Below, one piece after another: positions 817 to 45,624 of a stretch of DNA of 64,000 nt. Made by a program: the position numbers and the translations under genes. Below the pieces are notes generated by a model, which worked only from the letters and a program-made list of their open reading frames with translations, searched no databases and was not told where the DNA came from. Position 1 is the stretch's first letter. Every line of letters begins with the position of its first letter. This DNA comes from Gammaproteobacteria bacterium (GTDB lineage Bacteria; Pseudomonadota; Gammaproteobacteria; Pseudomonadales; Halieaceae), in contig JAUIMF010000010.1 of NCBI GenBank assembly GCA_030433415.1, positions 1-64,000 of the forward strand. The letters are read 5' to 3'.

Positions 817-1419
817 TCAGAACAGCCGTTTGCGGCGAATGCTCTTGATGATCACCGGGTCCACGGGCACGTTGCCGTGGCCTGCCACTTGATGCGTGGG
901 CGCCGTGGCGATGAAATCCACGACGTTCATGCCGTCGATGACCTCACCAAAGACCGCATAGCCACTGCCGCCGGGCTGCCAGTCCAGGCGCAGATTACTG
1001 CGCTGGTTGATGAAGAACTGGGCCGTCGCGGAATCCGGATCCGAGGTGCGCGCCATGGCGATGGAGCCGCGAATATTGTGCAGCCGGTTGCGCGATTCGT
1101 TGGGAATCGGATCACCGGTGGGTTTCTCCTGCATGTCCGGGGTCATGCCGCCTCCCTGGATCATGAAATTCGGTATCACGCGGTGAAAGATCGTGCCGTC
1201 ATAGAACTCGTCGTCTACGTAGCGCAAAAAGTTCTCTACGGTCACGGGCGCCTTGTCGCGGAACAGGCGCAGGGTGATTTCACCAAAATTCGTGACGATC
1301 AGTATCTGTGGATTGGGCAGCGGGGTTTCTTCGGCGCGCACAGCGTGGGTGCTGCCAACAAGCAAAAGCACACCCAGCGTGGCGGCGAAAACGTGGCGAA
1401 AAAGGTGGGGTAGAGTCAT
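817..1419 (-). CDS. exported cyclophilin-type peptidyl-prolyl isomerase (PpiA-like)
   Basis: A 200-residue cyclophilin that should isomerise Xaa-Pro bonds in the periplasm. Residues 1-29 form a signal peptide with a hydrophobic core and an A-V-R-A cleavage site before E-E. The mature domain carries the cyclophilin landmarks FHRVIPNFMIQGG, NIRGSIAMART, ATAQFFIN and GYAVFGEVIDGM. Length and architecture match E. coli PpiA. It lies 30 bases downstream of the SH3-anchor gene and 15 bases upstream of pdxJ. A cytoplasmic PpiB-like role is unlikely because of the leader. Confidence 0.92.
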   Translation of the reverse strand: MTLPHLFRHVFAATLGVLLLVGSTHAVRAEETPLPNPQILIVTNFGEITLRLFRDKAPVTVENFLRYVDDEFYDGTIFHRVIPNFMIQGGGMTPDMQEKPTGDPIPNESRNRLHNIRGSIAMARTSDPDSATAQFFINQRSNLRLDWQPGGSGYAVFGEVIDGMNVVDFIATAPTHQVAGHGNVPVDPVIIKSIRRKRLF

Positions 1420-1449
1420 GGTGTCTTCCGGCTAAGGTGTCAGGAGTCG

Positions 1450-2130
1450 TCAGGCCCAGCTGGAGCTGCTGCGGCGGCGCGGCCAGAGGCGGGGTACGAC
1501 CAGGGTGATAATTACGCCCAACAGCACAGCCAGCGCGCCGTCGATCAACGTACTGCTTTGCAGGCGGTCGTTCAGGCGCTGGTTATCGGCCTCGAGCGTG
1601 TCGATGGACAGACGCATGGATTCACTTTCTTCGACCAGGCGGCGGTTCTGCTCGGCGGTCTCGATGGCGCTGCCCGACACCTGGCGTAGCTGGGCGAGTT
1701 CTTCCGTAACGCGTTGCAGTTCAGCCTGGCTTTCAGCCAGGGCATTTTCGAGCTGGCTGCGCTCTCCCCGCAGCGTGTCCAACTCCGTACGCAGCGTGGC
1801 TGATTCGCGCTCCGTTTCTTCGAGCTGGCGAGCGACCCGTGGCAACCGCACCTGGGCCGGCGCTTCGCTGGCGAGGTATTCGGCCTGAACCCAGCCCACG
1901 GTACCGCGGCTGGTACGCACCTCGGCCCAGTTACCGTCGGTGGAGCGCCGCTGTTCCACCAATGAGGTGCCGGGAACAAGTTTGCCCAGCCACCGGTAAT
2001 TGGATCCGGGACCGGCGTGGAGTACGACGAAGATCTCGTCAGAGATGTATCGGGTTTCCTGGGCCTGGGCAGCAGCGGTAAACAACAGCAGGCAAAGCAT
2101 CAGTCGACGTAGCACGGGGGTTCCTCGCAT
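1450..2130 (-). CDS. SH3 and coiled-coil membrane-anchor protein (TIGR04211-like)
   Basis: A 226-residue envelope protein: N-terminal signal peptide ending A-A-A-Q-A-Q, a bacterial SH3 domain at about 25-90 (L-H-A-G-P-G-S-N-Y-R-W-L-G and the GWVQAEYL end), a long Gln/Glu/Arg-rich coiled coil from about 98 to 190, then a transmembrane helix near 200-216 and a basic C-terminus RLWPRRR. This SH3-coil-TM plan matches the family known from E. coli YgiM, whose exact biochemical role is not established. The SH3 part should lie in the periplasm and may contact peptidoglycan; that is inference. The start at 2130 precedes the signal peptide directly. Confidence 0.85.
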   Translation of the reverse strand: MRGTPVLRRLMLCLLLFTAAAQAQETRYISDEIFVVLHAGPGSNYRWLGKLVPGTSLVEQRRSTDGNWAEVRTSRGTVGWVQAEYLASEAPAQVRLPRVARQLEETERESATLRTELDTLRGERSQLENALAESQAELQRVTEELAQLRQVSGSAIETAEQNRRLVEESESMRLSIDTLEADNQRLNDRLQSSTLIDGALAVLLGVIITLVVPRLWPRRRSSSSWA

Positions 2131-2141
2131 GAGTTCGGTGC

Positions 2142-2441
2142 TCAGGGTAAAACAATTCGGTACGGCTTGACCCGCACGCGGGTAAAGACACCTTCGCGGG
2201 CATAGGGGTCGCTGTCGGCCCAGGCCTGGGCGTCTTCCAGCGAGGGGAATTCGGCAATGATCAGGCTGCCGGTGAAACCCGCCTCACCCGGATCCTCGCT
2301 GTCTATGGCGGGGTGGGGGCCCGCGGCGAACAGGCGCCCTTCATCGACGAGCCCGCGGATACGGGCGAGATGCTCCTCGCGCACGGACAGGCGCAGGGAC
2401 AGGCTGTCGGGGGCGTCTTCTCCAAAAATCGCGTAGTACAC
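2142..2441 (-). CDS. YciI family protein
   Basis: A 99-residue protein of the YciI/YCII dimeric alpha-beta barrel family, beginning [14 protein letters not shown] and ending [10 protein letters not shown]. The family-typical segment [23 protein letters not shown] is clearly present, including the D-P-Y end where an Asp often lies in the proposed active site (His/Asp pair). Its substrate is unknown in the family. It sits between yciB and the SH3-anchor gene, reproducing the yciB-yciI association of many gammaproteobacteria. Confidence 0.9.
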
Positions 2442-2492
2442 GTGGTGCGTTCCTATGTTTTATTACGGTATCTGCGTCGGTCGGTGAGTCGG

Positions 2493-3089
2493 TCAACCGT
2501 CGCCGCCGGCGGTGCTCTCAGCGGCTGTGAGATGGGGGCTGATGATCAGCGCCGTCAGCAGCGTCAGGAGCAGCGTGAAACCGATGGCCGAGTAAAGCTT
2601 GTAGCTTACCCAGGTCGCCTCGCTGTAGCGGTAGGCAACGTACAGGTTCAGAGCCCCGACCACGGTGAAGTTGCCGATCCAGAGGATGTTCAGGCGGGTC
2701 CAGACTGGCGCCGGTAGCGTGAGCTGCCCCCCCAGGGTTCGTTCGAGCAGGCATTTTTCTGAGAACAGCGTAAAACCCGCAAACGCGAGGGCCAGAGCCC
2801 AGTTGAAAATCGTTGGCTTCCACTGGATGAAGGTCTGGTCGCGCAGCGCGAGCGTGGCGCCGCCAAATACCAGCACGGCGACGAAGGTCCACAGCGTGCG
2901 CTTCTCCCAGACGCCCGCCATGAGCCGGCTGACAATCACCTGCAGGGCGGTGGCGACGATGAGCACGGCGGTGGCACTGAAAATACCATCCAGTTCGTGC
3001 GTGTAGCCCGCAAAGGAGACGGTCTCGCCATCCATCTGGTAGACAACGAAGAACAGGACAATGGGCAGGAATTCGAGGATTTGTTTCAT
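2493..3089 (-). CDS. yciB: septation protein A / inner-membrane protein YciB
   Basis: A 198-residue polytopic membrane protein beginning MKQILEFLPIVLFFVVYQM, the standard YciB/IspZ start. About five hydrophobic helices follow, with RTLWTFVAVLVFGGATLAL, FIQWKPTIFNWALALAFAG and the conserved WTRLNILWIGNF. The family sits in the inner membrane, is linked to cell division and envelope integrity, and interacts with divisome and elongasome components in E. coli. The open frame continues upstream to 3209, but the Met at 3089 matches the family and has no extra residues before the first helix. The C-terminus carries a short acidic tail. Confidence 0.92.
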   Translation of the reverse strand: MKQILEFLPIVLFFVVYQMDGETVSFAGYTHELDGIFSATAVLIVATALQVIVSRLMAGVWEKRTLWTFVAVLVFGGATLALRDQTFIQWKPTIFNWALALAFAGFTLFSEKCLLERTLGGQLTLPAPVWTRLNILWIGNFTVVGALNLYVAYRYSEATWVSYKLYSAIGFTLLLTLLTALIISPHLTAAESTAGGDG

Positions 3090-3207
3090 GCAGTCTTCAG
3101 GGCGCCTGGCAGTGCTAGAATGCCGCGCGGTCGGGTGAGGCGGCATTGTAGACGAATTCCGTGCGCCGCTCACCGCATCCCCAACTCCTGAGGCGGAGCA
3201 GGCGCGC
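3090..3207. promoter_or_regulatory. divergent intergenic region between yciB and the yciO-like gene
   Basis: These 118 bases must hold the promoters of two operons running in opposite directions. A GGCGGAGCAGG ribosome-binding stretch precedes the plus-strand ATG at 3208. I see no clear matched -35/-10 pair. Confidence 0.4.
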
Positions 3208-3834
3208 ATGAGTCAGTTTTTCCAGATACATCCCGACAATCCCCAGGTGCGGCTGGTGCGCCAGGCGGCAGATATCGTGCGCAACGGCGGTGTTGTGGTG
3301 TATCCCACGGATTCGGCCTACGCGCTGGGTTGCCATATCGGCGACAAGAATGCGCTGGATCGTATTCGGCGCATCCGCAAGCTCGACGATCGCCACAATT
3401 TCACCCTGGTTTGCCGGGACCTGTCAGAGATCGCGACCTACGCCCGCGTCGACAACGCGGTGTATCGCCTGCTCAAGCATCACACGCCGGGACCGTATAC
3501 CTTTATTCTGCGGGCGACCTCGGAGGTCCCCCGGCGCCTGATGCACCCCAAGCGCCGTACCGTCGGCCTGCGGGTACCCGACAACGCGATCGCCCAGGCG
3601 CTGCTCGAGGATCTGGGCGAGCCCCTGATGAGCGTGACGCTGATCATGCCCGGGGACGAATTACCCCTGATTGATCCTTACGAAATCCGTGAATTGCTGG
3701 AGCACCACGTCGATCTGGTGATCGACGGCGGCTACTGCGGTATGGAGGCCACCACGGTCGTGGATATGGCGGACGAGGTGCCCATGCTGCTGCGGGCAGG
3801 CAAGGGCGATCCTGCGCCCTTTGAGGCCGCCTGA
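3208..3834 (+). CDS. YciO / TsaC-family threonylcarbamoyl-AMP synthase-like protein
   Basis: A 208-residue SUA5/YciO/YrdC-domain protein. The family makes L-threonylcarbamoyl-AMP for tRNA t6A or consists of close relatives such as YciO. Visible landmarks are YPTDSAYALGCHIGDKNAL near the N-terminus, the nucleotide-binding RIRRIRKLDDRHNFTLVC, TPGPYTFILRAT, and GLRVPDNAIAQALLE. The order YciO-ScpA-ScpB-RluB agrees with other gammaproteobacteria and favours the YciO subgroup over a primary TsaC; whether it makes t6A is uncertain. scpA follows closely, suggesting one operon. Confidence 0.88.
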   Translation: MSQFFQIHPDNPQVRLVRQAADIVRNGGVVVYPTDSAYALGCHIGDKNALDRIRRIRKLDDRHNFTLVCRDLSEIATYARVDNAVYRLLKHHTPGPYTFILRATSEVPRRLMHPKRRTVGLRVPDNAIAQALLEDLGEPLMSVTLIMPGDELPLIDPYEIRELLEHHVDLVIDGGYCGMEATTVVDMADEVPMLLRAGKGDPAPFEAA

Positions 3835-3867
3835 GGTATAATTTTGCGATTGCCCGCTGGAAATCCC

Positions 3868-4700
3868 GTGACAGAAGAAAGCCCCCCCCAGACCGATACG
3901 CCCGAGGTGAGCAGCCTGCCGAGCCAGGGTGAAATGCCTTTTGCCGTGGTGATGGGCAAGGCGGTAACAGAGCTACCCAAGGACCTGTATATCCCACCCC
4001 AGGCGCTCGAGGTGTTTCTGGAGGCCTTTGAGGGGCCCCTGGACCTGTTGCTGTACCTGATCCGCCGCCAGAACCTGGATATTCTTGACGTCGACGTATC
4101 GCGCATTACCGAGCAATACATGCAGTACGTTGAGCTGATGGATGCGATGCAGTTTGAGCTCGCGGCAGAGTACCTGTTGATGGCGGCAATGCTGGCCGAA
4201 ATCAAGTCCCGCATGCTGTTGCCGCGCTCCACCACCGTTGAAGAAGATGAAGAGGATCCCCGCGCCCAGCTCATCCGTCGCCTGCAGGAGTACGAACGCT
4301 TCAAGAAAGCCGCGGAAGACATGGAAGAGCTGCCGCGCATGGAGCGCGATACCTGGGTGGCCAGCGCAGCGCCGCCGCCGATCGAGAAGGAGCGCCCGGA
4401 GCCGGATGTAGACATGCGTGAGCTGCTGACGCTGTTGTCGGAGGTGCTCAAGCGCGCGCAGATGTACGAGAGCCACCAGGTGCAACGCGAGGCCCTGTCC
4501 ACGCGGGAGCGCATGTCGGAGGTGCTCGACAAACTGCAGGGAAAACAGTTTGTGCCGTTCGTGTCACTCTTTTCTCCCGAAGAAGGCAAGCTGGGGGTGG
4601 TGGTTACCTTCCTGGCCATCATGGAACTGATCAAGGAGTCCCTGGTTGAAATCGTGCAGACAGAGAGCTTTGGCCCCATTCACGTCAAGGGGCGCGCCGA

Positions 4701-4704
<4 letters not shown>
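3868..4704 (+). CDS. scpA: segregation and condensation protein A
   Basis: ScpA is the kleisin of the SMC-ScpAB condensin and bridges the ATPase heads of SMC. The family hallmark LEVFLEAFEGPLDLLLYLIR begins near residue 48, followed by the helical bundle with AAEYLLMAAMLAEIKSRMLLP and the C-terminal winged helix with FLAIMELIKESLVEIVQ. I chose the GTG at 3868 (M-T-E-E-S), giving 278 residues. A TTG at 3844 in the same frame has a better-spaced GAGG and would give 286, so the start is uncertain. A TATAAT at 3837-3842 lies over the upstream region. The 3' end overlaps scpB by four bases (ATGA). Confidence 0.93.
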
Positions 4705-5517
<813 letters not shown>

Positions 5518-8638: not shown

Positions 8639-9957
8639 GGGGCTATCACTCCTCGCCAGTGGCGGGCTCGCGCCAGGGTGTCGGTCAGGTCCAGGGTGGT
8701 CAGGCGCCGGTCGTGCAGAAGCCGTTGTCCGGCGATCCATACGTGGTTCACCTGGGAGCCGTTGCAGGCGTACACGATCTGCGACACGGGATTATAAAGG
8801 GGCTGCGTCGACGGGCCCGTGAGGTCCACGGCGACCAGATCGGCGGCCTTGCCCGGAGCGATGCTGCCAATGCGATGGTCCAGGCCCAGGGCCCGGGCTC
8901 CCCCCAGCGTCGCCATGTGCAGCGCCGTCGCCGCCGGCAATGCCGAGGGGTCATCGTCATGGAGTTTGGCGAGCAGGGCAGCGGTGTGCATCTCGTCAAA
9001 CAGGTTGAGGTCGTTGTTGCTGGCCGCACCGTCGGTGCCGAGGGCAACGTTGACCCCGGCCTCGAGCAGGCGAGTAACGGGGCAGGTGCCCGAGGCGAGC
9101 TTCATGTTGGATTGGGGGCAGTGCACCACGTGGGCGCCGGTTTCCGCCAGCGCCGCGATGTCCTGGGCTCCCAGGTCCGTCATGTGCACACACTGGGTGC
9201 GCGGGCCCAGCAGGCCAATGCGGCGCAGCGTATCGAGGGGGCGTTCGCCCGTTGCCTCGACAGCGTTGAGCACCTCGGCAGCGGTTTCGTGCAGGTGCAT
9301 GTGCACGGGCATATCGAGTTCGGCGGCGTAGGTCGCAAGGCGCTCCAGCACCGGCTCCGACACGGTGTAGGGCGCGTGGGGGCCAAAGGCGACCTGCAGG
9401 CGGTCACGGTTGCGACATTCGTCGCGCAGTGCCAGGCATTTGCTGATGTACTCATCGGGCCCCGAGCCCCAGGGCGATGGAAAGTCCAGCACGGGCGCCG
9501 CCAGCTGGCAGCGCATGCCTGCCTCCTGCACCAGGTCGGCAACCACATTGGGAAAGTAGTACATGTCGCTGAACGTTGTAGTGCCCGCGAGAATCATCTC
9601 AGCCATGGCAAGCGCAGCGCCGTCGCGCACGAATTCGTCGCTGGCGTGGGCCTGTTCGGCGGGCCAGATATGCTCCTCGAGCCAGGGCATGAGCGGAAGG
9701 TCGTCGGCAAAGCCCCGCAGCAGGCTCATGGGAGCGTGGCCGTGGGCATTCACCAGCCCCGGAATCAGGGCATGGCCCGGCAGGTCCACGCGCTCGTCGG
9801 TATCGATCGCCAGGGCTTCCTGCCGCGGCAGCACGCTGACGATATCGCCGTCGCGTATGGCGACCGCGTGGTCTGCAAGCACAGCGTCTGCAGGCTCCAG
9901 GGGCAGAATCCACTCGGCGTGGATCACCAGCTCCGCCGCGGTATTTTCAGGGCTCAT
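8635..9957 (-). CDS. mtaD: 5-methylthioadenosine/S-adenosylhomocysteine deaminase-type amidohydrolase
   Basis: A 440-residue metal-dependent amidohydrolase that probably deaminates methylthioadenosine and S-adenosylhomocysteine to their inosine forms. The metal-binding N-A-H-G-H (near residue 65), [11 protein letters not shown], the late His in [15 protein letters not shown] and the metal Asp in [20 protein letters not shown] are all present. I used the Met at 9957 (M-S-P-E-N-T) because residues upstream look like translated promoter DNA. It heads the operon mtaD-ubiG-gph-yciK, which links by-product removal from SAM-using methylation with a SAM-dependent methylase. Guanine or cytosine deaminase relatives share the fold, so substrate is inferred. 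Confidence 0.87.
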
Positions 9958-10118
9958 GTTCTCGGCTTCCTTCCGCTTGGTCCGCCCTCGCCGGGGCGGA
10001 GCGCGAGTATAGCGCGGCTGTGTCTCCCGTAGCCTTGGCGGGTCCACAAAAGGTATAATTTGGCGTTTGATCCGGCGTTTTCTGAACGCCCTGCGCAAAG
10101 GCATTGTGAAGGCATTTT
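9958..10118. promoter_or_regulatory. divergent promoter region between mtaD and gyrA
   Basis: A TATAAT hexamer at 10054-10059 could be the gyrA -10 element. The best -35-like hexamer, TTGGCG at 10035-10040, is only 13 bases upstream, so the match is weak at -35. A GAAGG at 10108-10112 is the gyrA ribosome-binding site. Weak promoters are common for supercoiling-sensitive gyrase genes; that link is inference. Confidence 0.45.
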
Positions 10119-12703
<2,585 letters not shown>

Positions 12704-38362: not shown

Positions 38363-40024
38363 ATGGGTGTGTTCGAACGTCTGGCCTCCATGACGATCCG
38401 CCAGAAGATCTACGGGGGCCTGGTGCTTGTCGGCGCGGTGACCGTCGCGATTTCTCTTTTGCTCACCTATCGGGCAGAGCGCGATCTGTCTGATGAACTG
38501 ATCCGGCAGATCCTCAAAAACAATGCCGAAGTCTACTTCGACTCGATCAATACGATGATGCTCAACGGCACCATTGGTCAGCGCAGTGTACTGCGCGAAA
38601 AGCTGCTACAGCAGGATGGAATCGAAGATGTGCGACTGGTGCGCAGTCATTTCATTAACGATGTTTTTGGTCCCGGCAACGAAGGTCAGGCGCCCATCGA
38701 TGAAGTCGATGAACTGGGTCTTCAGGGTGGCAGTCATTTTCTCTATTCACGGAACGAGAATAACGATCGCCTGCTGACCTACCTGATGCCCGTAGTGGCC
38801 AGCAAGGACTACCGCGGCACCAATTGCCTGATGTGCCACGTGGTCGAGGAGAACTCGATTCTCGGTACCATGCGGCTGACCTACAATCTAAGAGAAACCG
38901 ACGAAAAAACACAAAAAAGCCTGTTGACGGCAGGATCGATTCAACTCGCGCTGCTGACCTTTGGCTTTATTTGCCTGGGTGTGCTGGTCAACCGGGTTGT
39001 GGTGCGACGCCTGCAGAATCTGAAGGACCGCCTGGTGGCGGTGCAGGAATCCCAGGACCTGACCGAGACATTCCAGCCTCATGCGCGGGACGAACTCGGG
39101 GACGTTACTGAGGCCCTGGGGGCGGTTTTTTCCAGTTTTCGCGATAGTTTGCGCAGCGTTCAGCAGCAGACCGATTCACTGTTGGGGTCTGTCGAAGAAG
39201 TCGTGCGGATTTCGTCAGCGACGGAGCGCATTGTGGTTTCCCAGAAAGGCAGTACCGAAAGCGTCGCTGCGGCGATTGGGGAACTGGATGCCCATGCCCA
39301 GCGCGTAACGGCGAGCACGGAAGCTGCGACGGCGAAATCTGTTGAAGCCGATAGCCTGGCCCGCTCCGGCGTGGAAGTTGCCGCTACGGCGGACCAGAGC
39401 ATCCAACGCATGCACGTGAGCATTACGGATTCGGTGAATACCATCAATGCGCTGAGCGACCAGACCCGCGAGGTCGCCGAGGTCCTGGATGTGATCAGCG
39501 ATATTGCCGAGCAAACCAATCTGCTGGCACTCAATGCTGACATCGAAGCGGCCCGGGCCGGCGTGCAGGGCCGGGGCTTTGCCGTGGTAGCCGGTGAAGT
39601 GCGCAGCCTGGCAACCAGTACTCGCGAGTTTGTTGAAAAGGTCCATGAGACCATGCGCAGTCTGCGCGAGTCTGCCAACCGTGCGATGGAAACCATGGAA
39701 CAAACCACGGGGCAGGCACAGCAGGTACAACAGGATATCGACGGTCTGGCCTCGGCGCTGCGCACCATTAACGAGTCTGTAAGTGAGATCGAAACGCTCA
39801 ACGAACAGATCAATCACGCCGCGGCGCAGCAGAATGAAGCGACCGATGGCATCAGTGCCAGCATTGCGACGATCCGCTCGGACTCCGAAGAGTCGGCAAA
39901 CGACGCCATCAAGGGCCTGGCCGTGAGCGAGAAACTCGAGCAGGTGGTACGGCAACTGAAGCTGCAGGTCGAGCAGTTCCGCATCGACGCGCATGGGCCC
40001 TTGAGAGATCGGGATCAGTCCTGA
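38363..40024 (+). CDS. methyl-accepting chemotaxis protein with a periplasmic haem-c site
   Basis: A 553-residue chemoreceptor. Helix 1 at about 17-36, a periplasmic domain at 37-188, helix 2 at 189-212, a HAMP-like linker and a signalling coil. The periplasmic domain contains C155-L-M-C-H159, a c-type haem attachment motif, in the context [10 protein letters not shown]. The cytoplasmic hairpin tip reads [19 protein letters not shown] and then [15 protein letters not shown], with Asp and Gly where Ala and Asp are usual. There is no C-terminal CheR-binding pentapeptide. Haem-c chemoreceptors are known from Geobacter; redox, NO or O2 are likely signals by inference. Confidence 0.92.
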
Positions 40025-40590: not shown

Positions 40591-41190
40591 TCAGGAAGAC
40601 GACGCAGTCGGTGGAAAGTCGGCCATCATCTCGCGTGCCACCGTCGATGCCCGGCTGTCTTTTTCTTTGCGCGACGAGAGTTTCTTGAGGCGCCCTTCCG
40701 CGAGACTGCGCCAGACAATGGTGTTCGTCGACGTGTCAATCACGTCGATGATGACGGTGCCTTCATCGTAGGTGCTGACGCTGGGACCGCTGCTGTAGCC
40801 CAGGCTTACCGCCGAGCCGTGGGTACCCACACCCACGCCGCCATGCATGCCCGCCGAGGGATAACCGGCGAAGCTGTTCACCTTCATTTTTTCCTGGGTC
40901 GAGACACTGTAGTTGATCAGAAAGTCCGGTTTCACGCCGGACACCTCGCGAAAGTTCTTGGCCTTGAGTTCCCGATTCACGTAGTTACGTATGCGCGCGT
41001 CAGAGCTGTTGTACTGACGATACTCCGAGGTCTTTGAAGGGAAGGCATCGTCGTACCAGCGGTAGGTGTGAAATCGCGAGAAATCGACGGTGGGGTCGTG
41101 ATCGACCACCATCAGGGGCTGGCTGCTGCAGGCGCCGAGCAGGATGAGTCCCGACAATATCAGGCAGAGCCGGGCGATGGATGGGCGCAT
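40591..41190 (-). CDS. DUF4136 lipoprotein
   Basis: A 199-residue lipoprotein: lipobox L-L-G-A-C with the modified Cys at 21, then a DUF4136-type domain with VDFSRFHTYRWYDDAF, DARIRNYVNRELKAKNFREV, PDFLINYSVSTQEK, a Gly-rich stretch (G-M-H-G-G-V-G-V-G), and VIIDVIDTSTNTIVWRSLAEGRL. Function of DUF4136 is unknown; proteins are in the outer envelope. It has a 99-base gap to the globin gene upstream. Confidence 0.9.
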   Translation of the reverse strand: MRPSIARLCLILSGLILLGACSSQPLMVVDHDPTVDFSRFHTYRWYDDAFPSKTSEYRQYNSSDARIRNYVNRELKAKNFREVSGVKPDFLINYSVSTQEKMKVNSFAGYPSAGMHGGVGVGTHGSAVSLGYSSGPSVSTYDEGTVIIDVIDTSTNTIVWRSLAEGRLKKLSSRKEKDSRASTVAREMMADFPPTASSS

Positions 41191-41289: not shown

Positions 41290-41730
41290 TCAGAAGGGCT
41301 CTTCCACAATCTCGTCGTAGTGACGGGCGAGGCGCTGTAGTAGCGCATTCTGAGTGCTTGTGGGCACGCCATTCGCTTCCAGAGCGGCAATGAGGTTTTC
41401 GACAATGGAATTGAACTGGGCGGTGCTGATCCCCATGCCTCGATGGGTTTCACGCATCGCGTCGCCCTCGTAGGTGCAGGGTCCGTTGGCAGTGACGCAA
41501 AGATGATTGATGAACTGCGCGCGGAATCGCGAGATATCGGAATTGAGGAACAAGGGTAGCGCCTGCTGATTACCTGCGAGTTCACCCAGGAAGCTGTCGG
41601 TTATCGCTTCAATGCCCTCGTATTCACCCAGAGCCTGGTACAGCGTGCGCTGTGGCGGTGAGGTGGTTGTACAGGACGCCAGGCAGGCAACTGCCGCCAC
41701 GGTGATCAGGAATGCGCGCGCAGTATTCAT
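41290..41730 (-). CDS. lipidated group I truncated haemoglobin
   Basis: A 146-residue globin. An N-terminal lipobox L-A-S-C (Cys20) sends it to the envelope, unlike most truncated globins. The domain shows TLYQALGEYEGIEAITDSFLGEL, the proximal-His stretch MRETHRGMGI (His F8) and FNSIVENLIAALEANGVP. At B9-B10 the usual F-Y reads F-L, so the B10 tyrosine that stabilises bound O2 is missing. An added C-V-T-A-N-G-P-C loop may hold a disulphide. It shares a four-base overlap with the DUF3034 gene. O2, NO or electron transfer roles are all possible. Confidence 0.9.
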   Translation of the reverse strand: MNTARAFLITVAAVACLASCTTTSPPQRTLYQALGEYEGIEAITDSFLGELAGNQQALPLFLNSDISRFRAQFINHLCVTANGPCTYEGDAMRETHRGMGISTAQFNSIVENLIAALEANGVPTSTQNALLQRLARHYDEIVEEPF

Positions 41731-42584
41731 TGCGTCACCTGCAAAGATAGGTAGAAACCGGATTGATCAGTGAGGCCCGCAATGCTGCCCAGATCCGCAT
41801 AGGCGGCGATGACGCTGAAGCGCTTGTTGGGGAACCAGCCCAGAAATACATCGCGCCAGTCGTCTTCCTTGACGGCAGCCAGGTGATCAGGTTTTTGACG
41901 ATACTCTGCGCCCAGGGCCCAGTGGTGATTGAGAAACAGCGCAACGGATCCCTCAGCGACCCAACTGGGGCCGGAACCATCGGTGGCGCCGAAGCCCAGG
42001 AGGCCGGTCTGGTTCGCCTCGGTGTGGCGCAACGTGACGTTGGCGAACACGTTGCGTCCGAACAGCGCATTCAGCCATAGCTTCGAAGCAGATGCCGTGA
42101 AGTCGATGCCGTGGTCATCTGCCGCACCGAGGAGTTCGGGAATCGCAAAATCCCGGACCCATTTGGCCTGAGCACCTACCGTCACAGCGGGCAGATTGCC
42201 GTACAGCACATGGCCACCCACGCGCCACTTCATGGCGAGTATGTCCTGGTCAATGGACAGGTTCAGCGGTTGTACCTTCAACTGCTGCGACGCAATGCTT
42301 GCCTCAAAGCGGTTGCCGAAATTGACCGCAGCGCCCGTCACGCGAAGATCGAAGTCGTCGACGCGAACCCCGGTCACAGCCACACTGCCACCCCATTCGC
42401 CGGCCTCGGCATAGCCTGCCAGCAGCGCCCAGGGCACCAGCCCGCCACCTGCCTGGCCCTCGATCTGTTGTCCCCCCGCCGTTGCGAGAATCTTCGAATC
42501 AGCGCTGACGGTGGGTGCAGCAAGGCCCAATGTCAGTAGCAGCGTTACGTACCGCAGCACAAAGGTGCGGATAAAAATACTCAT
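41727..42584 (-). CDS. DUF3034 family outer-membrane-like protein
   Basis: A 285-residue exported protein with a signal peptide to about residue 28 (A-A-P-T-V-S-A-D) and repeated amphipathic strands, ending F-Y-L-S-L-Q-V-T-Q as a barrel would. Characteristic DUF3034 residues include ILATAGGQQIEGQAGGGLVPWALLAGY and the alternating hydrophobic strands of the rest. The family has no assigned function. It lies between an EAL phosphodiesterase (9-base gap) and the truncated globin (four-base overlap), a grouping I recall from other gammaproteobacteria. Confidence 0.88.
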   Translation of the reverse strand: MSIFIRTFVLRYVTLLLTLGLAAPTVSADSKILATAGGQQIEGQAGGGLVPWALLAGYAEAGEWGGSVAVTGVRVDDFDLRVTGAAVNFGNRFEASIASQQLKVQPLNLSIDQDILAMKWRVGGHVLYGNLPAVTVGAQAKWVRDFAIPELLGAADDHGIDFTASASKLWLNALFGRNVFANVTLRHTEANQTGLLGFGATDGSGPSWVAEGSVALFLNHHWALGAEYRQKPDHLAAVKEDDWRDVFLGWFPNKRFSVIAAYADLGSIAGLTDQSGFYLSLQVTQ

Positions 42585-42593
42585 GGTATTCCT

Positions 42594-44861
42594 TCAGGTC
42601 TGAGACGCGGCGTTCAGGCCGCGCCAGCTTTCTTTAGCCAGAAATTCCAGCAGATGCTCTGCCGGCATGGGTTTCGCGATCAGGTAGCCCTGCACAATCT
42701 CGCAGTCCAGATCACGCAGCAGCGCGAAGATCTGGGGTGTTTCTACACCTTCGGCGACGACTTCAAGGCCCAGGTGATGCGCCATCTCGATCGTCGATGA
42801 CGCGATCAGGCGATCACCTTCCTCGGTGTCAATCTGTTCTACCAGGCTGCGGTCGAGTTTGAGTTCCCGAACCGGGAGTGTTCGCAATTGGGCGAGGGAT
42901 GAAAAGCCGGTGCCATAGTCATCGATGGATATGCGCATGCCGAGTTGTTGCACGCGTTCCATATTTTCGCGGGCCAGTTCGACGTCTGACATCATGGAGG
43001 TTTCGGTCACCTCAAGCACCAGGGCGTGGGGCGGTAGTCCGGCGTCGCGAATTTTCACGACAATCGAATCAACGAAATCCCGATTTATTACGTCTTTTCC
43101 CGATAGATTGATCGAGGTTGCGAGCTCAATGCCGGCGTCTCGCCAGGCCTGTTGGTCGCGAATGGCGCGTTCGACCACCCACGCGGACAGGGCGGTGATC
43201 ATGCCCGTCTGCTCGGCTACGGGAATGAATTCATCGGGATAAACGTTGCCCAGTTCCCTGTCGTTCCAGCGCAGTAACGCCTCGGCACCACAGATGCTTC
43301 GATGCTGCACATGGTATTTGGGTTGGTAAAACAGCTCGAAGGCATTTTCGTCGATGGCCGATTGCAGTCGCCCGGCAATGCGAATCTGGCGCAGGTGGTG
43401 CTCGTCCTTGCCCAGTTCGTAGGTTGCAGCTTGCTGTCCCGTTGTTCTCGCCTCCGCCAGCGCCAACTGCGAGCGCCGCAGCAGATCTTCAAAATCAGTG
43501 CCATGGGCGGGGCTGAAGGCGAAGCCGGTGCGGGTTTCGATGGTGACGGGAACTCCGTCGATGCTCATGGCCGGTGCCAGGGTTTCGCGCAGCTTTTGCA
43601 TAACTGTGGGAACACTGCTCGCGTTCAACTCCTGCAGAAACAGCAGAATCTGCTGATCTGCCACACGACCGGCAAAGTCTCCGCGGCGCAGGCTGGCGGC
43701 GAGGCGCTGGGCAGTTTCGCGTAGTACCTGGTCCGAAAAGTCGCTGCCGTAAAGGTCCCGTAGCTGTGGGAGATTGTCGATCTCGAGTAGTGCCACGGCA
43801 AACGTGGTGCGTTGGGGGTTCTCGGTCAGGTAGCGGTTGTAAAGCGTATGCAGGTGATTGCGGTTTGGCAGTTGGGTCAGCAGGTCATGCAGGGCCTGGT
43901 GTCGAATGCGTGATTCCCGCTCCGAAACCGCCTGCTGCATGGTTTCGATCGCCAGTCCCAGAGAGTCCAGCTCCGTCCCCGTATCGACGGTGACGCTGCG
44001 TGAGTAGTCGCCATTGGAAATGGCTCGGGCGGTACCGACCAGACGCGAGATGGGCGCGGCGATCCAGCGCGCCGCGCCGACAGCGATCAGTGTCGAGAGT
44101 GCCAGGGCTGTAAGGGCAATGAAAATGAGTTGGTAACGCAGGCCGTCAAAGTTGGCCAGGGCGTCAAGCAGTGAAAGTGATACCTCGGCGGAAAGGGAGT
44201 CACCGGTCTGTAGCGCACCGAGATCGATGGTGTGCGTCACCCAGCCCGCAGATGTTCTGCCACCGGAGCCTTCAGCCGTGTTACGAATATCGATGGTAAT
44301 AGCGGCACCGGTGAGTTGCTCAAGGCGCTCCACTTCTGGCGTGTCGATCGTTTTGCCAAGAATCAGCCAGCCCATGAGCGAGGGAGCCAACGATGGGCTG
44401 ATGCCAAGGTAGTAGGCCTTGTCGGCGATGGCCTCAATCGCTCCCGCGCTTTGGGGTGTGACCCGTCCCATCGCTTTTTCTACACTGGCGGGGAGCTCGG
44501 ACACCGGTGATGAGGCGAGGATGATTTCGCCCGTCGGTGTGATCCAAAGGGCGAGGTCTGCATCCACGCGCTCGCCATGGTTTGCAAGCGCCGAGAGGAT
44601 TGTCCCCCGGTCACCCGTAGCCGCCGCGGCGCGAAATCCGTAGTCGCCGGTGATAACCGCGACTTGCTGGCGAAGCGTTTCTATCTGTTGCGTCATCGCC
44701 AGCGCCGCCACGCGGGCCCTGACAGTGACGTCTTCGGCGACGAGCGCGCGCACATTGGCGTCAGCGGCCTTGAGCGCTGCCAGCGTGGACGACAGCAGGC
44801 CGGCACCCACCAGTACGATCAGCAGCAGAAGCAGCCGCGCGGCAAAGCTACGAAGTTTCAC
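42594..44861 (-). CDS. membrane c-di-GMP phosphodiesterase (sensor-HAMP-degenerate GGDEF-EAL)
   Basis: A 755-residue signalling protein. Helix 1 at 8-27, a periplasmic sensor (about 28-245, Cache-like), helix 2 near 247-268, HAMP (WIAAPISRLVGTARAISNGDYSRSV), a GGDEF domain and a C-terminal EAL domain. In the GGDEF domain the catalytic signature is replaced by R-V-A-D-Q-Q-I near 398, so cyclase activity should be lost. The EAL domain keeps EALLRW near 527, NLSGKDVINRDF, LEVTETSMM and DDYGTGFSSL, so hydrolysis of c-di-GMP is expected. GTG start overlapping the cupredoxin-like gene by 14 bases. Input is presumably periplasmic. Confidence 0.93.
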   Translation of the reverse strand: MKLRSFAARLLLLLIVLVGAGLLSSTLAALKAADANVRALVAEDVTVRARVAALAMTQQIETLRQQVAVITGDYGFRAAAATGDRGTILSALANHGERVDADLALWITPTGEIILASSPVSELPASVEKAMGRVTPQSAGAIEAIADKAYYLGISPSLAPSLMGWLILGKTIDTPEVERLEQLTGAAITIDIRNTAEGSGGRTSAGWVTHTIDLGALQTGDSLSAEVSLSLLDALANFDGLRYQLIFIALTALALSTLIAVGAARWIAAPISRLVGTARAISNGDYSRSVTVDTGTELDSLGLAIETMQQAVSERESRIRHQALHDLLTQLPNRNHLHTLYNRYLTENPQRTTFAVALLEIDNLPQLRDLYGSDFSDQVLRETAQRLAASLRRGDFAGRVADQQILLFLQELNASSVPTVMQKLRETLAPAMSIDGVPVTIETRTGFAFSPAHGTDFEDLLRRSQLALAEARTTGQQAATYELGKDEHHLRQIRIAGRLQSAIDENAFELFYQPKYHVQHRSICGAEALLRWNDRELGNVYPDEFIPVAEQTGMITALSAWVVERAIRDQQAWRDAGIELATSINLSGKDVINRDFVDSIVVKIRDAGLPPHALVLEVTETSMMSDVELARENMERVQQLGMRISIDDYGTGFSSLAQLRTLPVRELKLDRSLVEQIDTEEGDRLIASSTIEMAHHLGLEVVAEGVETPQIFALLRDLDCEIVQGYLIAKPMPAEHLLEFLAKESWRGLNAASQT

Positions 44862-45624
44862 CAGAGAAGCGTTTCAGCAGGTTTTCGAGGTCGCCCTGAC
44901 TGCGGGGCGTCTGCGGGTCTCGCCATTGAAGCGGCAACGAGATGGTGTTGCCCTCGCCGATCGTTGCGGGGGGTGGAACAAAGCTGCCTTCGCCGTTCAG
45001 CAGCGGATGCCAGAGCTCAACGGTGTCTGCATCGAACGCCTCGGGCAGCGTAATCACGCCGTGCTCGTCACTGATCCACGTCGGTCTATTGGTGACCAGA
45101 ACAAAGGCCTGCATGTTGTCATGGATGTTACAGCCCATGGCCACGATGCCTTCGGTGTTGAATGCCACGGGTTCGGCATCATCGGCGCGGTACAGTTTGC
45201 GCTCGAAGGCGTTACCCTCAGAGAACGAGTAGACGTGATGGCGAATGTCGTCGCTGTTGGGAAAACGCACCGTCGCGCCAATGGGTACGCTGGATACGAG
45301 AGGGGTAAAGCGTTTGTTGCGCTGATCCACCACGAACTCAGCGGGAGTGCCGACGGGGCGTGGGGAACGCTCCTGCGCCGGAGTGCGGTAACGCAAAACT
45401 ACCCAGGGCAGGGGATTGTTGTTCTGGTCCAGAAAGGTAAGCGTGGTGACATCCGCGCTGGCCGTAGTGCTGGTTGCAGCGCTCAGGGCCAGCAACACGC
45501 TCGTGACGAGTGAACGAAGTAGATGCGTGATACCGCGTCGTGTCGATCGAGCTTGGGGGGGGCGAGACGTCGAGTTCGTTCTCGGTATCAGGCGTTTTGA
45601 GTCGGCTGTCACTGTTGGCGCCAC
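44848..45624 (-). CDS. exported cupredoxin-like (methylamine-utilization-type) protein
   Basis: A 258-residue exported protein. A basic N-terminus and a hydrophobic stretch (about 36-52) end in T-T-A-S-A-D-V. The mature domain has the pattern of blue-copper-like proteins often annotated as methylamine utilization protein: VRFPNSDDIRHHVYSFS (His ligand region) and VAMGCNIHDNMQAFVLV (Cys and His ligands). Ligands H-H and C-x2-H are thus present, but a full type-1 copper set is not proven. The GTG start at 45624 gives an unusually long basic leader; a later start is possible. It heads the four-gene operon. Confidence 0.85.
   Translation of the reverse strand: MAPTVTADSKRLIPRTNSTSRPPQARSTRRGITHLLRSLVTSVLLALSAATSTTASADVTTLTFLDQNNNPLPWVVLRYRTPAQERSPRPVGTPAEFVVDQRNKRFTPLVSSVPIGATVRFPNSDDIRHHVYSFSEGNAFERKLYRADDAEPVAFNTEGIVAMGCNIHDNMQAFVLVTNRPTWISDEHGVITLPEAFDADTVELWHPLLNGEGSFVPPPATIGEGNTISLPLQWRDPQTPRSQGDLENLLKRFSGETS

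Follow-up and report, generated by a model that had tools for sequence, protein, structure and literature searches.

A predicted blue-copper protein accompanies a periplasmic sensor domain with exchangeable outputs in Pseudomonadota

Introduction

What would bring an exported copper-type protein and an exported globin into one operon with a membrane enzyme of c-di-GMP turnover? The question is raised by four genes in a 64,000-nucleotide stretch of gammaproteobacterial DNA (here, the window), for which a first-pass annotation proposed that O2, NO or the redox state of the envelope sets c-di-GMP turnover. That proposal fits what is seen. The recurrence of the group, the export of its products, the conservation of copper- and haem-ligand residues and the EAL-only output have all stood, but the focus on c-di-GMP was too narrow, since cyclase and kinase outputs also occur.

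What the cupredoxin accompanies is the periplasmic sensor domain and not the EAL domain, a point absent from the earlier annotation. With moderate confidence, we favor a trans-envelope receptor of modular build, served in the periplasm by a blue-copper protein as its cognate adaptor, which would report a redox or gas signal, the output in the window being c-di-GMP hydrolysis. Findings that argue against such an adaptor are identified below wherever they arise.

Results

Layout of the operon and its surroundings

The open reading frames place all four genes on the minus strand, running from 45624 to 41290 in the order cupredoxin-like protein, GGDEF-EAL protein, DUF3034 protein and globin. Going down this order, successive genes overlap by 14 bases, lie 9 bases apart and overlap by 4 bases. 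The coordinates thus bear out the annotated operon in place, strand and spacing; its title had the four genes right and left out the GGDEF domain of the EAL protein. The source assembly is fragmented and 89.5% complete, and no sigma-70 promoter-like site was found between 40100 and 46400. Two genes lie close by. A DUF4136 lipoprotein-like gene (40591-41190, minus strand) begins 99 bases downstream of the globin gene on the same strand, and an MCPsignal chemotaxis receptor (38363-40024, plus strand), about 1.3 kb from the operon, carries a CLMCH c-type haem motif at residue 155 in its sensor part. Neither is among the neighbor families that recur at the compared loci. All window features described below are on the minus strand.

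The cupredoxin-like protein

The first gene (44848-45624; its GTG start is uncertain) encodes an exported cupredoxin-like protein of 258 amino acids that matched no Pfam family. Its AlphaFold2 model (pLDDT 85.9) has a cupredoxin fold, with amicyanin as the top Foldseek match and VIA Z scores of ~11 to 12 over 80 to 92 residues against plastocyanin, amicyanin and the cupredoxin domain of NirK. The predicted type-1 copper ligands are His129 (45238-45240) and the Cys165, His168 and Met171 of a C-x2-H-x2-M loop (45112-45132) with the spacing of amicyanin. Each of the four is present in 75 of 75 relatives, among them four weak members (L154 and L156 to L158). Fold and ligands point to a type-1 (blue) copper protein, which would bind copper. 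The protein shares the fold and the ligand spacing of amicyanin but is longer on both sides of the fold and is linked to a receptor gene. The family is frequently annotated as "methylamine utilization protein," a label that the Caballeronia homologue carries. A candidate conserved C-terminal motif was dropped, as the pattern fits just 17 of the 75 sequences.

The receptor

The second gene (42594-44861) encodes a two-transmembrane receptor of 755 amino acids, in which hydrophobic segments at residues 1-33 and 241-271 flank a predicted periplasmic sensor domain (residues 34-240; 44142-44762). There follow a HAMP domain (43926-44072; Pfam, 7.2e-12), a GGDEF domain (43431-43895; Pfam, 1.1e-26) and an EAL domain (42669-43370; Pfam, 7.1e-71). 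The sensor is dCache_3-like, its Pfam match (1.4e-5) falling slightly under the curated cutoff, and its profile found nothing better than E 0.18 among PDB sequences.

The GGDEF domain has the signature ADQQI in place of an intact one and is probably no cyclase. The catalytic Glu, Asn, Glu, Asp-Asp, Lys and Glu of the EAL domain are all present, and each position is retained in either 64 or all of the 65 relatives, defined as proteins above 500 bits within 6 kb of DUF3034. From these two sets of motifs, c-di-GMP hydrolysis is the likely activity of the window receptor, and the annotated view that it should only degrade c-di-GMP is a fair reading. Degeneracy is not universal: RLGGD is found in 18 of the 65 relatives, some of which may additionally make c-di-GMP, and this variation counts against the adaptor model.

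The DUF3034 protein

The third gene (41727-42584) encodes a DUF3034 protein of 285 amino acids (Pfam, 2e-95) with a signal peptide. Its AlphaFold2 model (pLDDT 91.6) consists of an N-terminal helix followed by 12 long strands that form a closed barrel, which by prediction makes it an outer-membrane beta-barrel. The nearest structural relatives of the model are FapF (Z 20.1; 217 aligned at rmsd 2.8) and, at Z 18.3, KdgM, and its profile gave just two weak, short matches among PDB sequences. FapF, KdgM and the COG4313 channels have the outer-membrane barrel fold predicted here but are only 8 to 11% identical to DUF3034, and the common fold says nothing on function.

The globin

The fourth gene (41290-41730) encodes a group-1 truncated globin of 146 amino acids (Bac_globin; Pfam, 3.1e-13), with HbN as its top PDB relative. 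A lipobox (LASC, with Cys20) agrees with the annotated lipidated globin, which the protein would be if this motif is used. Across 87 globins, four of them weak members (L154 to L157), the lipobox pattern fits 57, a shortfall that argues against the adaptor model; among the others, some have apparent lipoboxes missed by the pattern and others apparent plain signal peptides. The proximal histidine, His96 (F8; 41443-41445), is present in 87 of 87. Cys78 and Cys85 (41476-41499) are each found in 83 of 87, a conservation that would suit a possible disulphide in a globin outside the cytoplasm.

HbN has Tyr at position B10, and TyrB10 with GlnE11 is the O2-stabilizing distal pair. The window globin belongs to the group-1 truncated haemoglobin family and has the proximal histidine but lacks this pair, with Leu at B10 and Phe at E11. 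Its relatives are similar: of the 87, 85 carry one of Leu, Ile, Val, Phe and Met at B10 (the others Tyr in 1 and Asn in 1), 76 have Phe or Leu at E7 (Gln in 4), and 73 have Leu or Phe at E11 (Gln in 1, Asn in 4). Stable O2 binding seems unlikely because the distal polar residues have been lost, and stable O2 carriage is disfavored on the same grounds. Judging from known haem proteins, the apolar distal pocket would favor NO or CO over stable O2. Elsewhere, related truncated globins stand in tandem, two or three at a time, in many genomes of family f208 (e.g., G454:C14:147392-148558); they score more weakly (~1e-16 to 1e-19).

The four genes recur together across Pseudomonadota

DUF3034 is present in 18 of 369 genomes of the class, 39 of 398 of the phylum and 41 of 194 of the order, as well as in 8 named loci and 13 plasmid records, 2 of which were examined. 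Each genome search scores just a restricted set of preliminary candidates, and absences are therefore soft; the compared genomes are related, so that the counts are not independent. Of 94 DUF3034 loci of Pseudomonadota, 87 have a globin within 300 bp; within 6 kb, 74 have a cupredoxin and 69 the sensor. All three are present at 64, so the grouping exceeds chance and the co-occurrence expected from the first-pass annotation is found. The corresponding counts at the 85 loci flanked on each side by 4 kb or more are 82, 71, 66 and 61. In the gene maps from which order and strand were read, generic EAL matches below 500 bits away from DUF3034 were left out. The annotation had described the group as recurring in gammaproteobacteria; it does recur, but it extends beyond that class to Novosphingobium and a Rhodobiaceae MAG.

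Gene order and strand vary across the loci (for example, in Caballeronia and Novosphingobium), with the set still together. Identity to the window proteins over the aligned rows is 21 to 47% for the cupredoxin, 34 to 56% for DUF3034, 17 to 34% for the sensor and 28 to 48% for the globin. Where the set is split, its parts remain in one genome (G563, G611, G575, G596, G478 and G494). In a draw of 299 genomes, 26 of the 27 globin matches at E <1e-37 adjoin DUF3034, the exception being in G367, and the 25 genomes with both DUF3034 and globin include 24 with the cupredoxin and 23 with the sensor.

Several cases argue against the adaptor model. Neither cupredoxin nor sensor was found in G435, which has DUF3034 and globin; G107 has the cupredoxin without the sensor; and DUF3034 stands without the other three at L039 to L043 and L128, with short flanks at L040 to L043. 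As separate observations, the lone DUF3034 gene in the L043 region 863-5455 is downstream of a DabA and a proton-antiporter-type gene, and that in the L039 region 8891-11084 adjoins a Pyr_redox_2 protein.

The cupredoxin tracks the sensor domain across different outputs

A sensor profile built from 64 phosphodiesterase receptors at these loci gave 37 matches in 33 of the 299 phylum genomes, 19 at DUF3034 loci and 18 away from them. A cupredoxin gene is adjacent in 12 of these 18, counting L206, where it is one gene apart. The outputs at those 12 loci are GGDEF-EAL (8), cyclase (2), Ser/Thr kinase (1) and a PAS hybrid histidine kinase (1). For the six remaining matches, the cupredoxin is elsewhere in five of the genomes, and none was found in G471. 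Altogether, 7 of the 37 matches have no cupredoxin within 2 kb, which, with the lack of any in G471, counts against the adaptor model. A search with the cupredoxin, which is independent of the sensor profile and hence the fairer test, returned 46 matches in 41 of the 299 genomes, and 29 of the 38 strong ones are within 2 kb of a sensor. The cupredoxin is found in 32 of 33 sensor genomes versus 41 of 299 overall (Fisher 1e-33, kinship ignored).

The same pairing is seen with other kinds of enzyme. At L149, a class III cyclase domain forms part of the transducer that neighbors cupredoxin, DUF3034 and globin, and L152 and L153 are alike; L189 and L190 also have a cyclase output beside the cupredoxin. 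The cyclase domain was called by Pfam in L149, L189 and L190, and its motifs were read by eye in L152 and L153. A Ser/Thr kinase output occurs beside the cupredoxin at L031 and L204, and a hybrid histidine kinase output near it at L206. The sensor profile finds the receptors at L149, L152, L153 and L031 with E values of 1.3e-35, 1.3e-28, 2e-35 and 5.4e-14, respectively; beyond them, those loci give just three matches at E <=1e-6, two paralogues and a gene fragment, each next to a cupredoxin. Since the sensor carries a cyclase or a kinase elsewhere, c-di-GMP is one output among several.

How often outputs have been exchanged can be read from a tree of 88 sensor domains, from which L027 and domains shorter than 140 residues were left out and in which receptors not otherwise classified were labelled phosphodiesterase. 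Only four output changes are required on it, as few as five labels allow, and it includes long branches; both points argue against the adaptor model. The exchanges are real but few, and some lie on long branches. Within genus g505, the receptor is a phosphodiesterase in G838 and a cyclase in G782, G885 and G905; the flanking genes differ, so this is no in-place swap. At L093 (4765-7200) and L094 (10951-13347), a further receptor gene, whose sensor is of this type too, lies just upstream of the cupredoxin, and one cupredoxin may be common to two receptors there.

Variable input genes and alternative explanations

The 12 cupredoxin-sensor loci without local DUF3034 and globin are in genomes that have DUF3034 elsewhere (5) or yielded no match to it (7), and DUF3034 with its globin looks like an exchangeable input, one of several front ends. 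A family of ~415 amino acids is encoded beside the cupredoxin at L196, L201 (8178-9425), L202, L203, L205, L237 and L240 and near the full set of L145. Its products are perhaps outer-membrane proteins and, at a guess, barrel-like, Pfam barrel matches being below the cutoff or absent. L031 has a porin-like gene (Porin_5) among its neighbors. CCP_MauG di-haem peroxidase genes adjoin the cupredoxin at L206 (6681-7694), L244 and L245 and are near it at L243. At L154 (4449-8363), which L155 to L157 resemble, the neighbors of DUF3034 and a divergent globin are PepSY_TM, a borderline FMN_bind and a cupredoxin that has two domains and belongs to another family. This may be an electron-transfer version of the set; a Rieske protein is near at L158. 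Other recurrent neighbors comprise a few families common to 4 to 6 loci, several of them confined to one family of genomes. Redox chemistry is the common theme of the variable input genes.

These neighbors lend themselves to the main rival explanation, in which barrel, globin and cupredoxin form an envelope unit for electron transfer or detoxification (of NO or peroxide, for example), the receptor merely regulates this unit or is co-transcribed with it, and the cupredoxin is an electron carrier and no adaptor. Type-1 copper sites are classic electron carriers. The redox genes of L154 and L158, the peroxidase genes adjoining the cupredoxin and the DUF3034 and globin of G435, where no receptor was found, all speak for it, and the other kind of cupredoxin at L154, L156 and L157, which stands with DUF3034 and globin and has no sensor nearby, argues against an adaptor. 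We nevertheless consider this explanation unlikely. The cupredoxin tracks the sensor across outputs, even where DUF3034 and globin are missing, and this is not required of a mere co-regulated carrier.

It is less probable still that the cupredoxin reports the periplasmic copper supply and the receptor responds to it. Such a role would suit the invariant copper ligands and the presence of the copper transporter PcoB among the barrel-fold relatives of DUF3034, where it stands far down (Z 12.4) among the 50 matches listed. A buried type-1 site, however, is typical of electron transfer and not of reversible copper sensing, and the globin would be left unexplained. Nor did CueR-like boxes, or FNR/Anr, Fur-like, NsrR-like or OxyR-like boxes, clearly exceed mononucleotide shuffles in 75 regions upstream of the cupredoxin gene; the largest excess was for FNR/Anr with two mismatches (12 versus 7.6 in shuffles). 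Inherited synteny without common function, which the further flanking genes common to loci of one family would suit, is highly improbable given that the linkage holds at 17 to 56% protein identity and in several gene orders and that split parts still co-occur in genomes.

Discussion

A model for signaling across the envelope

Returning to the favored reading, a receptor with a blue-copper adaptor, we infer copper and haem binding, contact between the proteins, a direction of signaling, a sensed gas or oxidant and an effect on lifestyle. The outer-membrane DUF3034 barrel and the lipobox-bearing globin would form the input side. Exchange with the haem of the globin, for which NO or a comparable diatomic is favored over stable O2, would determine the redox or occupancy state of the copper, and the cupredoxin would dock on the periplasmic dCache_3-like domain of the inner-membrane receptor. 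An altered copper state would then change the HAMP domain and with it the activity of the EAL domain. The outcome in the window would be changed c-di-GMP hydrolysis and, through it, a choice between attached and free life. By genome comparison, cupredoxin and sensor are a matched pair, kept while outputs and input-side genes change.

A broader version of this reading, which we offer tentatively, is a receptor class driven by electron transfer. Here, haem proteins (the lipo-globin or a di-haem peroxidase) and a blue-copper protein would form a redox relay from the outer membrane, and the dCache domain would read the oxidation state of the copper and hand it on to outputs that can replace one another (c-di-GMP, cyclic nucleotide, Ser/Thr phosphorylation or phosphorelay). 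In the periplasm, the messenger that signals NO, peroxide or electron flow would thereby be a mobile copper protein.

If the favored reading is true, a bacterial receptor family has a blue-copper protein as its cognate partner, a pairing for which we found no description in the open-licence PMC literature. That literature likewise yielded no description of the four-gene group and nothing on a cupredoxin with an EAL domain or on a "methylamine utilization protein" with c-di-GMP. The model offers testable roles for DUF3034 and for the proteins annotated as "methylamine utilization protein." One sensor type joined to four outputs also makes a natural series, useful for asking how envelope redox state or NO is read outside the cytoplasm.

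Comparison with known systems

YfiBNR is a redox-controlled periplasmic c-di-GMP system and has been described as disulphide-based. In HmsC-HmsD and PdeC, too, the redox state of the envelope works via a periplasmic protein or domain; these are described as disulphide-based in the available portion of a 2022 review of c-di-GMP inputs (PMC8846402), whereas the window encodes copper and haem proteins. The sensors treated there are of globin-coupled, hemerythrin, flavin and disulphide types, and the word "copper" does not occur in the main text of the review (PMC8846402). Globin-coupled and hemerythrin sensors resemble the window system in linking c-di-GMP turnover to a metalloprotein that possibly meets O2, NO or CO. 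Their metal domain is fused to the enzyme (PMC8846402), whereas the globin and the copper protein of the window are separate and exported; no polypeptide here joins globin and output, which are encoded by separate genes. The available portions of PMC3770913, PMC1592074, PMC8846402 and PMC8967002 do not describe the four-gene group.

The nearest analogue known to us is NspS-MbaA of Vibrio cholerae, in which NspS binds polyamines and, as this periplasmic partner, controls a membrane c-di-GMP enzyme, according to the available portion of its description (PMC8967002). The window would share with it the combination of periplasmic partner and membrane c-di-GMP enzyme, to which gene linkage and co-occurrence point here. 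It differs in its putative partner, a cupredoxin accompanied by a haem protein and a barrel, and in that the sensor type also occurs with other outputs. A membrane receptor controlled by a periplasmic partner would thus be of a kind already known, and we infer that a cupredoxin in the place of that partner is what is new.
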